Assembly: GCF_024436055.1 (NCBI RefSeq) | Contig: NZ_JANFNH010000026.1 | Coordinates: 1 to 64,000 of the forward strand | DNA: 64,000 bases | Direction: 5' to 3' | DNA from: Streptantibioticus rubrisoli | GTDB lineage: Bacteria; Actinomycetota; Actinomycetes; Streptomycetales; Streptomycetaceae | Part shown: in pieces, positions 2,098 through 62,052 of the stretch | Numbering within the stretch: the first letter of the stretch is position 1 | How the letters are laid out: every line of letters starts with the position of its first letter | Program-made: the position numbers and the translations under genes | The notes under the pieces: generated by a model | The model's database searches: none | Told to the model about the DNA's origin: nothing | The model's input: only the letters and a program-made list of their open reading frames with translations

Positions 2098-2649
2098 TTA
2101 GTCGTCGATCCCGTCGGCCGCCCGGCGGGCGCGCAGTTCCTTGATCGCGCGGCGGCGGGCCAGGCGGTGGGTACGGCGGATCTGGGCCTCTTCGAAGCGG
2201 CGGCGGTCCTTGTCCGTCTCCGGCAGCACGGGCGGCACCGTGCGCGGCTTGCCGTCCGCGTCGACCGCGGCGAACACCAGGTACGCGCTGCCCACGTGTG
2301 TCCTGGGCGTGGACTCGTTCCACCGCTCCGCCAGCACCCGCACCCCGATCTCCATCGAGCTACGGCCGGTCCAGTTGCACTGGGCCTGTACGTGGACCAG
2401 GTCGCCCACGTGCACCGGCTCCAGGAACGCCATCTCGTCCATCGACGCCGTCACCGCCGGGCCGCCGGAGTGCCGACCGGCCACCGCCCCCGCCGCGTCG
2501 TCGACGAGTTTCATGATCACGCCGCCGTGCACGGTGCCCAACAGGTTGGTGTCGGCCGCCGTCATGATGTGCGACAGCGTGGTACGGGACGCGGAGGTCG
2601 GCTTACCCGGAAGGTCACCCTCCGGGCTGTTGGTGACGAGATTGACCAT
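2098..2649 (-). CDS. Acyl-CoA thioesterase (hotdog fold, YciA/BFIT type)
   Basis: 183 residues with a single hotdog domain. The helix motif GTVHGGVIMKLVDDAAG carries the acidic residue typical of catalysis in this family, followed by TASMDEMAFLEPVHVGD. Family members hydrolyse acyl-CoA to free acid and CoA in the cytoplasm. An Arg-rich tail follows the domain. The substrate chain length cannot be told. It is transcribed alone, and its stop codon overlaps the end of dispersed repeat A. Confidence 0.85.
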   Translation of the reverse strand: MVNLVTNSPEGDLPGKPTSASRTTLSHIMTAADTNLLGTVHGGVIMKLVDDAAGAVAGRHSGGPAVTASMDEMAFLEPVHVGDLVHVQAQCNWTGRSSMEIGVRVLAERWNESTPRTHVGSAYLVFAAVDADGKPRTVPPVLPETDKDRRRFEEAQIRRTHRLARRRAIKELRARRAADGIDD

Positions 2650-2695: not shown

Positions 2696-2950
2696 CTACG
2701 GCTTCCCCACCTCGGCGGCCAGCCGAAGGAAGGCGGACCACTCCGCGGGGGCGAAGGTGAGGGCGGGACCCTCGGGGTCCTTGGAGTCCCGGACGTGGAT
2801 GGCGGTGGGGCATGCGGCGACCTCGACGCACTGGCCGGCGTTGCTGCCGCTGTAACTCGACTTGCGCCAGTCGAGGGCGACCTCGATGCACGCGCCGCCT
2901 TGGCTGCCGCTGTAACTGCTCTTGAACCACACGAGGTTGGCGGTACTCAT
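2696..2950 (-). CDS. DUF397 protein with an internally doubled motif
   Basis: 84 residues. The DUF397 signature appears twice: FKSSYSGSQGGACIEVA (about 9-25) and WRKSSYSGSNAGQCVEVA (about 28-45), followed by the usual IHVRDSKDPEGPALTF and a C-terminal helix. DUF397 proteins are small partners of XRE regulators in Streptomyces (WhiJ/BldB/AbaA-type loci), and some pairs behave like toxin-antitoxin systems. The start codon overlaps the stop of the upstream XRE gene by 4 bp, so the two are translationally coupled. The doubling reads as a tandem duplication of the first half. Biochemical activity is unknown. Confidence 0.88.
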   Translation of the reverse strand: MSTANLVWFKSSYSGSQGGACIEVALDWRKSSYSGSNAGQCVEVAACPTAIHVRDSKDPEGPALTFAPAEWSAFLRLAAEVGKP

Positions 2951-3759
2951 AGCTCTCCTGCCAGGCGTTCGATGAGGCTCGCGGACTCCCCCGTGCTGAG
3001 GGCTTGCGCCCGCAGCGTGCCATATCGCTGTTCGAGCACACTGAGTTCGTTCGACTTCGTGACGAAGGTACTCCCGGCCTGCCCTTCGACGTACCCAACG
3101 TTGCGCCCCTCCGGCGTTTCCAGGAGCGTCAGCGGCCCGTCAAACGCAGCGTGCGACTCGATTTCCAGTGGAAGAACCTGAATGGACACGTTGCGCATCT
3201 CACCGATTTCCAGCAACCGTTGAAGCTGCGCCTTCATCGCAACGCGGCCACCGACAGGGCGCCGCAGCAGCCACTCCTCGATCACGAACCCCAAAGTGGG
3301 CGCAGGCTTGCGGATGTAGAGGGCCTGGCGTTCAAGTCGCGCCTGTACACGCCGCTCCACCTCATCCTCGTCAAGCGTCGGGATGTGAGCGCTGAGGACA
3401 GCGCGTGCGTAAGCCTCCGTCTGATGCAAGCCGTTTAACACGACCGAGTCGTAGGCGTAGAGCTTGACGACCTCTGCCTCTGTCTCCACATACCGGAGGA
3501 ACCAAGCCGGATGCTTCAGCTCCACAATCGGCTCAGCCGCAGCCTTCAACACCCCCTGCGCGCCCAGCGCTTCATCAACGCACCGCACGTACTCGGGCTT
3601 TGGGCGCCGCCGCCCGCTCTCAACCGACCGCACCTGCGATTCCGAGTAGTTGACCCTGCGGGCCAACTCCGCCTGCGTGAAACCCGCCCGCTCCCGCAGC
3701 GCCCGCTGCTGGCAGCCATAGATCAGCAACCCCACCGGCGTGCCGTCGTGTTCGTCCAC
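2947..3759 (-). CDS. XRE-family regulator with DUF5753 domain; contains a TTA codon
   Basis: 270 residues from a GTG start. The N-terminal helix-turn-helix (about 15-65) reads LRERAGFTQAELARRVNYSE then SQVRSVESGRRRP; a DUF5753-type ligand or interaction domain fills about 85-260. This is the WhiJ-like class of developmental regulators that pair with a DUF397 protein, here its 4-bp-overlapping downstream neighbour. An in-frame TTA leucine codon (plus-strand bases 3436-3438, in the VVLNGL segment) makes translation dependent on bldA tRNA, also present in this window at 50 kb. The divergent ATP-binding gene completes the typical triad. Confidence 0.9.
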   Translation of the reverse strand: MDEHDGTPVGLLIYGCQQRALRERAGFTQAELARRVNYSESQVRSVESGRRRPKPEYVRCVDEALGAQGVLKAAAEPIVELKHPAWFLRYVETEAEVVKLYAYDSVVLNGLHQTEAYARAVLSAHIPTLDEDEVERRVQARLERQALYIRKPAPTLGFVIEEWLLRRPVGGRVAMKAQLQRLLEIGEMRNVSIQVLPLEIESHAAFDGPLTLLETPEGRNVGYVEGQAGSTFVTKSNELSVLEQRYGTLRAQALSTGESASLIERLAGEL

Positions 3760-3864
3760 CCCGCACCACCCCTGCTCCGTCCCGCGACGGCGGGTAACCG
3801 CACTAACTGGCCGTACCGTCTGTCGGACTGGTCACGCTAGCCCCAGGCGAGAATCGTTGAGGTC

Positions 3865-4305
3865 ATGAAGCCGGAAGTTCCCCCGATCGCGGCACCCTCC
3901 CAAGTAAGCGGTGCCGAGTGCCAGTTGATGCTGTGTGCGGAGCCGCACGTGTTGGCCGCTGTGCGGCGCTTCGTCGGTGCGCGGCTGCGCGAGTGGGGCC
4001 TGGAGGAGTTGCGGCCCGCGGCGGCGATGTGTGTGACGGAGCTGCTGAGCAACGTGCACAAGCACGCGGCGACGCCGGAGTGCGTGCTGGAGCTGCGCCG
4101 TATTGCGCAGGGCATTCGGGTTTCGGTGCGGGACACCGAGCCGTCGCCGCCGGTGATGCGGGAACCGGATCACATGTCGGAGCGGGGGCGTGGACTGTTC
4201 CTTTTGAGCGAGACGGCGGATGCGTGGGGGTTTGAACCGAAGGCGACCGGTAAGGAGGTGTGGTTCGTGCTGAACGCGTTCAGCGAAGGCGTTCACGGTA
4301 CGTAG
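3865..4305 (+). CDS. ATP-binding anti-sigma-like protein (HATPase_c)
   Basis: 146 residues, a stand-alone GHKL ATPase domain of the RsbW/SpoIIAB kind. The N-box is seen in CVTELLSNVHKHA, the G1 region around VRDTEPSPP, and the G2 box in ERGRGLFLLSETAD. Such proteins bind partner proteins and sometimes phosphorylate STAS antagonists. Lying next to an XRE/DUF397 pair it matches the AbaA/WhiJ triad architecture of Streptomyces, so it probably works with that pair rather than with a sigma factor. A GAGG precedes the ATG. Confidence 0.85.
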   Translation: MKPEVPPIAAPSQVSGAECQLMLCAEPHVLAAVRRFVGARLREWGLEELRPAAAMCVTELLSNVHKHAATPECVLELRRIAQGIRVSVRDTEPSPPVMREPDHMSERGRGLFLLSETADAWGFEPKATGKEVWFVLNAFSEGVHGT

Positions 4306-4428: not shown

Positions 4429-5676
4429 ATGAACGGATGGCCCGAGGGTTGGACCGAGGACGGCGAGCCGGAAGGCGCTCGCGTGATGCCGCACGTACAG
4501 CGGCGGCAGGGCGGCTACGGGCCGCCGTCGTACTCTGCCCCGCCCCCGCCGCAGGGGTCGGCCGCCGAGCCGCCGCTGCCGCCCGAGCTGTCGCCGCGCA
4601 GGGCCGCGGCGCGCGGTGGCGTGCCGCAGCAGGCGGGCGGTGACGGGAGCGGCACGTACCGTGCGGGGCGCCGGGCCCAGCCGGGCCGCCCGAAGAACTG
4701 GCGCAAGCGGATCACGTACGGCGTGCTGACGCTGGTGCTCGTGCTGCTCGCCACAACGGTGGGCACGTACTTCTGGGCGGACGGCAAGCTGAACCGGAAG
4801 ATCGACCTCAGCGCGCTGCAGAACCGTCCGCCGCAGGACAAGGGCACGAACTACCTGATCGCGGGTTCCGACAACCGCAGCAACCTCTCCTCCGACCAGC
4901 AGCAGGCGCTGCACGTCGGCAGCGACAACGAGGGTCAGTTCGGCAACAGCGACACGATGATGATCCTGCACGTGGGCTCCAACGGGGACACGCTGATCAG
5001 CCTGCCGCGGGACAGCTATGTGACGATCCCGGCGTTCACCGGGACGTCGGGCAAGCAGTACCCGGCGTCCAAGCACAAGCTGAACGTGGCGTTCTCCTGG
5101 GGCGGCGGGCAGTTGCTGGCGCAGACGGTGGAGTACAACACGGGCCTGCACATCGACCACTACGCGGAGATCGGCTTCGGCGGCTTCGTGAACCTGGTCG
5201 ACGCGCTGGGTGGCGTGAACATGTGCCTGGACAAGCCGCTCAAGGACAAGGACTCGGGCGCGGACTTCAAGGCGGGCTGCCAGACGTTCAATGGCCCGCA
5301 GGCGCTGTCGTTCGTCCGGGAGCGGCACCAGGAGGCCAACCAGGACCTGGGCCGTGAGAAGCACCAGCAGCAGTTCCTGCACGCGGTCGCCCAGCAGACG
5401 GCAACCCCGGGCACGTTGCTGAACCCGTTCAAGCTGTACCCGGTGCTGGGCGCGGGCCTTGAGACGCTGACCGTGGACAAGGGCATGAGCCTGTACGACC
5501 TGACGAAGATGGCACTGGCCATGAAGGACGTCTCCGGCGGCCAGGGCACGTCGACGGTGGTCCCCGTCGCCAACCCCAACTACCCGACGGCGGACGGCGA
5601 CGCGCTGCTGTGGAACAAGTCCGAGGCCAAGATCCTCTTCGACAAGCTCCAGAACGACGAACGCGTGGGCGGCTGA
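4429..5676 (+). CDS. LCP family glycopolymer transferase
   Basis: I take the start as the ATG at 4429, preceded by AAGG; the frame extends 37 codons further up through unlikely sequence. The 415-residue protein has a Pro/Gly/Arg-rich cytoplasmic tail (1-94), a transmembrane helix (about 95-115) and an LCP domain with NYLIAGSDNR, SLPRDSYV (Arg194-Asp195), HIDHYAEIGFGG and LVDALGGVNMC. The C-terminal part with TPGTLLNPFKL and LTVDKGMS is complete, unlike the fragment at base 1. It transfers undecaprenyl-linked glycopolymers to the wall. It ends at a hairpin shared with the convergent acyl-CoA dehydrogenase. Confidence 0.9.
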   Translation: MNGWPEGWTEDGEPEGARVMPHVQRRQGGYGPPSYSAPPPPQGSAAEPPLPPELSPRRAAARGGVPQQAGGDGSGTYRAGRRAQPGRPKNWRKRITYGVLTLVLVLLATTVGTYFWADGKLNRKIDLSALQNRPPQDKGTNYLIAGSDNRSNLSSDQQQALHVGSDNEGQFGNSDTMMILHVGSNGDTLISLPRDSYVTIPAFTGTSGKQYPASKHKLNVAFSWGGGQLLAQTVEYNTGLHIDHYAEIGFGGFVNLVDALGGVNMCLDKPLKDKDSGADFKAGCQTFNGPQALSFVRERHQEANQDLGREKHQQQFLHAVAQQTATPGTLLNPFKLYPVLGAGLETLTVDKGMSLYDLTKMALAMKDVSGGQGTSTVVPVANPNYPTADGDALLWNKSEAKILFDKLQNDERVGG

Positions 5677-49909: not shown

Positions 49910-50088
49910 CTCACTCCTCCATGGCCGCACGGTACGGCTCCGCCCCACCGTAATGGATTGGCAAAGTACCGCGACTGCTACCAGAGGAGGATCTTCCCGC
50001 GCCGATTCGTACGCCGATCTGATTAATTGAAGAATTAACCAGGGTTCCGCCGGACCTCTCCCGGGGAAGGCTCACCACGGGAGGAGAG

Positions 50089-50170
50089 TGCCCGGAGCCG
50101 GACTCGAACCGGCACGACCCGTAGGTCAGTGAGGTTTAAGCTCACCGTGTCTACATTCCACCACCCGGGC
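50089..50170 (-). tRNA. bldA: tRNA-Leu(UAA), the bldA tRNA
   Basis: Class II tRNA on the minus strand starting GCCCGGGTGGTGGAATGTAG. The anticodon loop CTTAAAC gives anticodon UAA, which reads UUA; stem GTGAG/CTCAC; long variable arm; T arm GCCGGTTCGAGTCCGGC; acceptor 3' strand TCCGGGC with discriminator A. CCA is not encoded. In Streptomyces this is the only tRNA that reads the rare TTA codon and it controls development and secondary metabolism. Its promoter should lie just above 50200; an AGCCTA at 50219-50224 (TAGGCT on the minus strand) is a possible -10. Confidence 0.95.
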
Positions 50171-59679: not shown

Positions 59680-61847
<2,168 letters not shown>

Positions 61848-61861
61848 GGAGATTTCCTCAC

Positions 61862-62052
61862 CGACGCCTACGAGGTCAGCTGTCGGGTTCGGGCCGAGTG
61901 AGTTGCCCGGTCGCGGCGGCGCGACTTAACCCCTAGCCGGTCCGGCCAGTTGGCCGGCCCGGCGGAGAACCTTGGGTCCCCCGCTCCTGCCTACGGCGCT
62001 TTCGCGTCGACTGATCCCGTCGGTCGGCGGCAGGACTCGGCGTACCTGACCG
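61862..62052 (-). ncRNA. c-di-AMP (ydaO/yuaA) riboswitch upstream of the Rpf-like gene
   Basis: Minus strand, ending about 15 nt before the gene. In order it has CGCCGAGTCCTGCCGCC, GCAGGAGCGGGGGACCCAAG, GGGGTTAAGTCG, GGGCAACTC, then CCGAACCCGACAGCTGACCT and CGTAGGCGTC. The two ends (CGCCGAGTCC... and ...GTAGGCG) and the GGGGACCCA and CCGAACCCGACAGCT blocks are the hallmarks of the ydaO class. High c-di-AMP should terminate transcription or block it. Confidence 0.85.

Follow-up and report, generated by a model that had tools for sequence, protein, structure and literature searches.

The window, which is the whole stretch of 64,000 nucleotides of Streptantibioticus rubrisoli DNA that we analysed, carries a cluster of three genes, an intergenic region with a candidate operator, and a tRNA gene further along. 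The features are the following.

2696..2950, minus strand: DUF397 (BldB-like) protein, 84 aa, ATG start (PF04149, 6.2e-34, 116 bits).
2947..3759, minus strand: XRE (HTH_31) plus DUF5753 regulator, WhiJ-like, 270 aa, GTG start (Pfam).
3436..3438, minus strand: in-frame TTA, codon 108 of the XRE gene (271-codon frame, stop included; located by script).
3760..3864, no strand: divergent intergenic region, strongly conserved with Streptomyces sp. RPT161 (genome G002; alignments).
3798..3816, minus strand: operator-like direct repeat GTACGG-N7-GTGCGG, a lead only (sequence pattern).
3865..4305, plus strand: AbaA-like stand-alone HATPase_c_2 protein, 146 aa (PF13581, 9.3e-11).
50088..50170, minus strand: tRNA-Leu with anticodon UAA, decoding TTA (ARAGORN), the gene known as bldA.

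The XRE protein combines an N-terminal HTH_XRE domain with DUF5753 (PF19054, 6.9e-48; PF13560, HTH_31, 1.2e-14) and belongs to the WhiJ-like class, with PF13560/PF01381 and PF19054 above cut-off. It also aligns with the NF058600 Sco1979 family regulator over residues 9-270, but its 155 bits stay below the cut-off of 350, which leaves it outside that equivalog. The DUF397 gene adjoins the XRE gene, and its translation shows KSSYSG, CVEVA and VRDSK, the motifs named for BldB-like DUF397 proteins (PMC10294661). An N-terminal unit of about 20 residues is present in duplicate: PF04149 aligns as two stretches, and there is a separate match to profile positions 1-21 at 2876-2935, inside the gene. The duplication recurs in several paralogues and in the syntenic copies. 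Among the paralogues in which the KSSYSG...EVA unit is duplicated, the one at G000 C82:112421-112696, in the same genome, has two extra copies. The ATPase is of the AbaA-like class, with a single HATPase_c-type domain (PF13581, 42 bits against a cut-off of 27.4) and an orientation divergent from the XRE gene. A thioesterase gene (2098-2649, minus strand) and a LytR-CpsA-Psr (LCP) gene (4429-5676, plus strand) flank the triad.

The XRE stop and the DUF397 ATG have 4 bp in common (2947-2950), so the two genes are likely coupled in translation. Overlap in this order also fits an earlier comparative proposal, reported in PMC10364602, which views such pairs as type II toxin-antitoxin modules, with DUF397 as the toxin and XRE as the antitoxin. 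The same source describes, however, no clear toxicity when 14 other DUF397 proteins were overexpressed in S. coelicolor, and we hold this explanation to be highly improbable for the pair described here.

We surveyed 128 loci with DUF397 (120 plus 8 chosen) in seven genomes of four genera, among the matches listed; two listed G017 loci were left out, and 7 of 122 XRE matches were dropped as partial, leaving 115. The same architecture appears in 45 full triads of these seven genomes, and the ATPase gene is divergent from the linked XRE gene in 52/52 cases, both counts being among the matches listed. The iosA/abaA-whiJ-bldB loci of S. venezuelae (WhiJ9-BldB9-IosA; abaA6) are alike in that an output gene lies beside the XRE and DUF397 genes and shares an intergenic region with them, and the output gene of the S. 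venezuelae paralogue loci is of the HATPase type in five, as it is in the window (PMC10294661). The sequence-only reading had recognised a WhiJ/AbaA-type triad of XRE-DUF5753, DUF397 and a stand-alone ATPase, and both the Pfam matches and the 45 surveyed triads agree with it. It had also called the triad classical and developmental; the WhiJ/BldB/AbaA type stands, but "developmental" is generous, since most WhiJ paralogues have no developmental role shown in the consulted parts of PMC4255298 and PMC10364602. We did not find this particular triad in the published literature that we searched.

The intergenic direct repeats of the S. venezuelae locus are bound by WhiJ9. When BldB is missing, the divergent gene iosA is activated, and this activation requires WhiJ9; BldB itself pairs with BldB9 (PMC10294661). 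By analogy with WhiJ9 and BldB, the XRE protein would bind the shared intergenic region and control both the ATPase gene and itself, and the DUF397 protein would restrain the XRE protein, either by itself or together with BldB. The ATPase may be an anti-sigma-type switch protein acting on a sigma or anti-sigma partner. The candidate operator is of a different kind from that of WhiJ9. Whereas the WhiJ9 site consists of three direct repeats CGNNCTCAAC, the intergenic region of the window lacks such a triple and has one copy with a single mismatch, at the ATPase start (3856-3865), together with another type of repeat. Copies of the WhiJ9 consensus with one mismatch occur at 118 places in the window against 76 expected, and single copies therefore mean little. 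We found no direct repeats of length at least 7 in the intergenic region. The other repeat, of the GTACGG type, is present in all five full triads at this site. The generalised pattern GTACGS-N7-9-GTRCGG gives 14 matches upstream of XRE genes against 0.77 expected, the pattern having been picked after viewing the same loci; a held-out set of 40 XRE genes, mostly of other subfamilies, gives one match. Across 12 whole genomes the pattern has 43 to 258 occurrences in each, 1.3 to 10 times as many as the reversed pattern used as a control. The repeat is thus a possible operator and a candidate only. A family-wide TTGAG motif just upstream of the ATPase start was considered and rejected: it appears in 4/52 cases among the matches listed, all at the syntenic site, and the automatic starts are wrong in some rows.

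The in-frame TTA of the XRE gene, a rare leucine codon, falls in the middle third of the gene. The window's 55 other gene models (17,316 codons), made by a codon-usage script that shortens some 5' ends, have no TTA. The XRE gene, whose codon bias is poor (score -3.0), was not among the script's own models and was identified by homology instead. In a second count, we collected all frames 40 aa or longer that contain an in-frame TTA when read from the longest start (n=39), and ran Pfam on the XRE gene and nine others. Six of the nine have no match, and three are 5' over-extensions (enolase, AMP-binding and neocarzinostatin-like) in which the TTA lies upstream of both the matched domain and the script's start. 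The remaining frames were set aside for a negative codon score or for overlap with a called gene. The recount thus upholds the sequence-only reading on the point that the XRE gene alone has an in-frame TTA, at 3436-3438. If 56 genes carried TTA as often as the neighbouring genes of the survey do (12/575, among the matches listed), at least one TTA gene would be present with a probability of 0.69, so that one such gene is to be expected.

The tRNA-Leu(UAA) gene, overlooked in the sequence-only reading, is the only tRNA in the 64 kb (ARAGORN). A generic pattern occurs at two places in the whole genome, of which 50088-50170 is the only one called as a tRNA. Since this tRNA reads UUA and is encoded in the same window, normal reading of the XRE UUA should need bldA in this species, and translation of XRE, and probably of DUF397 by coupling, is predicted to depend on it. 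The tRNA gene lies 46 kb from the triad. The passages that we consulted on mistranslation in bldA mutants state no rule about which base follows the TTA.

The TTA is poorly conserved. We searched 394 genomes of the family for homologues of the XRE protein (E<=1e-80), which yields nine non-self matches in seven genomes besides its own. Eight of the nine are without TTA, and the ninth (L013) has one at another codon (174). The best match is Streptomyces sp. RPT161, 88% identical and with the same neighbours, where the column of the window's TTA holds TTG, still Leu. Against this genome, dN/dS is 0.14 for XRE, 0.18 for DUF397 and 0.22 for the ATPase, with similar values for the flanking genes (LCP 0.21, thioesterase 0.10); purifying selection keeps the function of the triad. 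We mapped the site in 14 genomes, a non-random choice from which G022 was left out, as its contig ends at the LCP gene. The full triad is present in five (its own, G002, G009, G017 and G028), the ATPase alone in two (G007 and G018), and none of the three genes in seven (G001, G005, G010, G011, G014, G016 and G102). G001 belongs to the same genus as the window, and there the LCP gene directly adjoins the thioesterase gene, with no triad between them. The XRE genes of G009, G017 and G028 have no TTA, so that the codon is found in 1/5 XRE genes at the site, the window's own. At its column G028 has GTG (Val), and with TTG in G002 the shortest path is GTG-TTG-TTA, in which TTG to TTA would be the last step. 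Orthologues lacking the TTA had been named beforehand in the sequence-only reading as what would refute its bldA proposal, and they are what the site and the homologue search both return. With no TTA in near relatives, the codon looks like something that changed recently in this species rather than a fixed developmental switch of the cassette. TTA genes are known from print in similar WhiJ-like and AbaA-like genes, as in the SCO1242, SCO1979-1980 and SCO3423-type whiJ-like clusters (PMC4255298, table 2). In those clusters, however, the TTA recurs in 9/11, 9/14 and 12/14 orthologues, unlike in the window, where the nearest orthologue is without it.

Within the class, a TTA is common. Among the matches listed, 24/115 full-length XRE genes have at least one, about 1 in 5, compared to 12/575 neighbouring genes outside the triads (Fisher 5e-12), the neighbour models being script-made with TTA scored as neutral. 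ATPase genes have a TTA in 4/62 cases and DUF397 genes in 1/151, again among the matches listed, and in the window's own genome there are 5 TTA genes among 22 DUF5753 genes. XRE genes also use leucine codons loosely. With TTAs estimated as TTG x CTA/CTG, the XRE genes have 28 observed against about 37 expected and the neighbours 12 against 12.3, for the matches listed, so codon usage suffices to account for the excess in XRE genes. On its own, one TTA in a gene of the WhiJ-like class is weak evidence of bldA control, as about 1 in 5 of those listed have one at near the codon-usage rate.

Loose codon usage could also have come from outside, if the XRE gene was imported by exchange at the site and the TTA arrived with a foreign codon usage. 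Its GC3 is 0.78, where most window genes have at least 0.84, and exchange at the site does occur: between G017 and G028, of one genus, protein identity is 97% for LCP, 95% for the ATPase, 78% for DUF397 and 44% for XRE. The low GC3 is, however, the norm of the class (median 0.83, among the matches listed), and the G002 orthologue is equally loose and has the same Leu as TTG, which places the change to TTA or TTG after any arrival. We find import a very unlikely source of the codon. An XRE-DUF5753 paralogue elsewhere in the genome (L151, G000 C82:54000-60100) has three TTA codons and a GC3 of 0.63, and bldA dependence is more plausible for it than for the XRE gene of the window.

The G017/G028 comparison suggests that the XRE gene was replaced under a kept ATPase. 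Within the compared stretch the two DNAs are identical through the 5' end of the ATPase gene and for 27 bp before it, and then diverge. We compared 25 cross-genome triad pairs whose ATPases share at least 70% identity; among the matches listed, G017/G028 is the single pair that combines an ATPase above 85% with an XRE below 60%. Each of the two loci (L093 in G017, L095 in G028) has two tandem DUF397 genes. In both genomes a TTA also precedes the homologous ATPase start by four codons, and this TTA is inside the gene only with an upstream GTG start. Of the seven ATPase genes at the site, one has a TTA. This is the lone AbaA-like ATPase of G018, of another genus (L267:5161-5583), with the TTA at codon 60 in a TELLSN stretch. 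Its presence at the same site suggests that one gene of the cassette could take over bldA control from another. It is conceivable, but we think quite unlikely, that bldA control of this site is real and mobile, acting through a UUA in XRE here and in the ATPase in G018, with an exchangeable regulator under a fixed ATPase. If true, single codon changes and cassette swaps would let species re-wire one developmental brake, at a distance of 46 kb from bldA.

TTAs tend to lie early in XRE genes. By thirds of the gene, we count 20/8/0 for TTA, 126/175/146 for TTG and 28/61/71 for CTA, among the matches listed. Counting each 60%-identity cluster by alignment column once (25 TTA events), which lowers but does not remove the dependence of related genes, TTA is 17/8/0 against 101/136/107 for TTG (Fisher 1.8e-4) and 25/58/52 for CTA (1.8e-6), for the same listed matches. 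A 5' bias of streptomycete TTAs is already published (PMC4255298). This strong bias to the 5' third suggests that selection on TTA position is at work in the class, with late TTAs removed or early ones kept, and the early-in-gene bias (25 cluster-by-column events among the matches listed) is a better handle on which triads bldA gates. A TTA at the same column in the nearest gene of another genome is found in G017/G028 pairs only, among the matches listed.

These observations bear on whether the window's TTA is a selected switch that delays XRE, and the coupled DUF397, until the late build-up of the bldA tRNA, making the triad a true bldA target. The bldA tRNA gene is present, WhiJ/AbaA-type clusters often have a TTA in print (PMC4255298), and the 5' bias of the class and the TTA in the G018 ATPase both point the same way. 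Against it are the TTG of the 88% orthologue and the TTA-less XRE genes at the site, the middle-third position of codon 108, a TTA rate accounted for by leucine codon usage, and a survey of 213 species in which most TTA codons are poorly conserved and TTA genes vary strongly between species (PMC10327506). We judge a selected switch unlikely, while giving it some weight. The sequence-only proposal of a likely direct bldA target is thus supported in part, by the type of triad and by the tRNA-Leu(UAA) in the window; the TTA as the mark of a dedicated target is the part that lacks support, because the 88% orthologue has TTG, the other XRE genes at the site have no TTA, and the class rate is that of codon usage.

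We consider it probable that the triad, a kind of regulatory cassette that is common in Streptomyces-type bacteria, is an ordinary member of the large WhiJ-BldB-AbaA paralogue family with a recent TTA that is a passive feature of the species rather than a selected switch. The codon would have come from TTG by one transition in a loosely coded gene, most simply after the split from Streptomyces sp. RPT161, and translation of XRE, with DUF397 by coupling, would all the same need the bldA tRNA in this species. The 5' bias of the class, the TTA in the G018 ATPase and the TTAs common to G017/G028 pairs count against a passive TTA. Elsewhere in the window, a c-di-AMP riboswitch (RF00379, 68.8 bits) lies at 61850-62008 on the minus strand, upstream of the gene model at 61188-61847 on the same strand.
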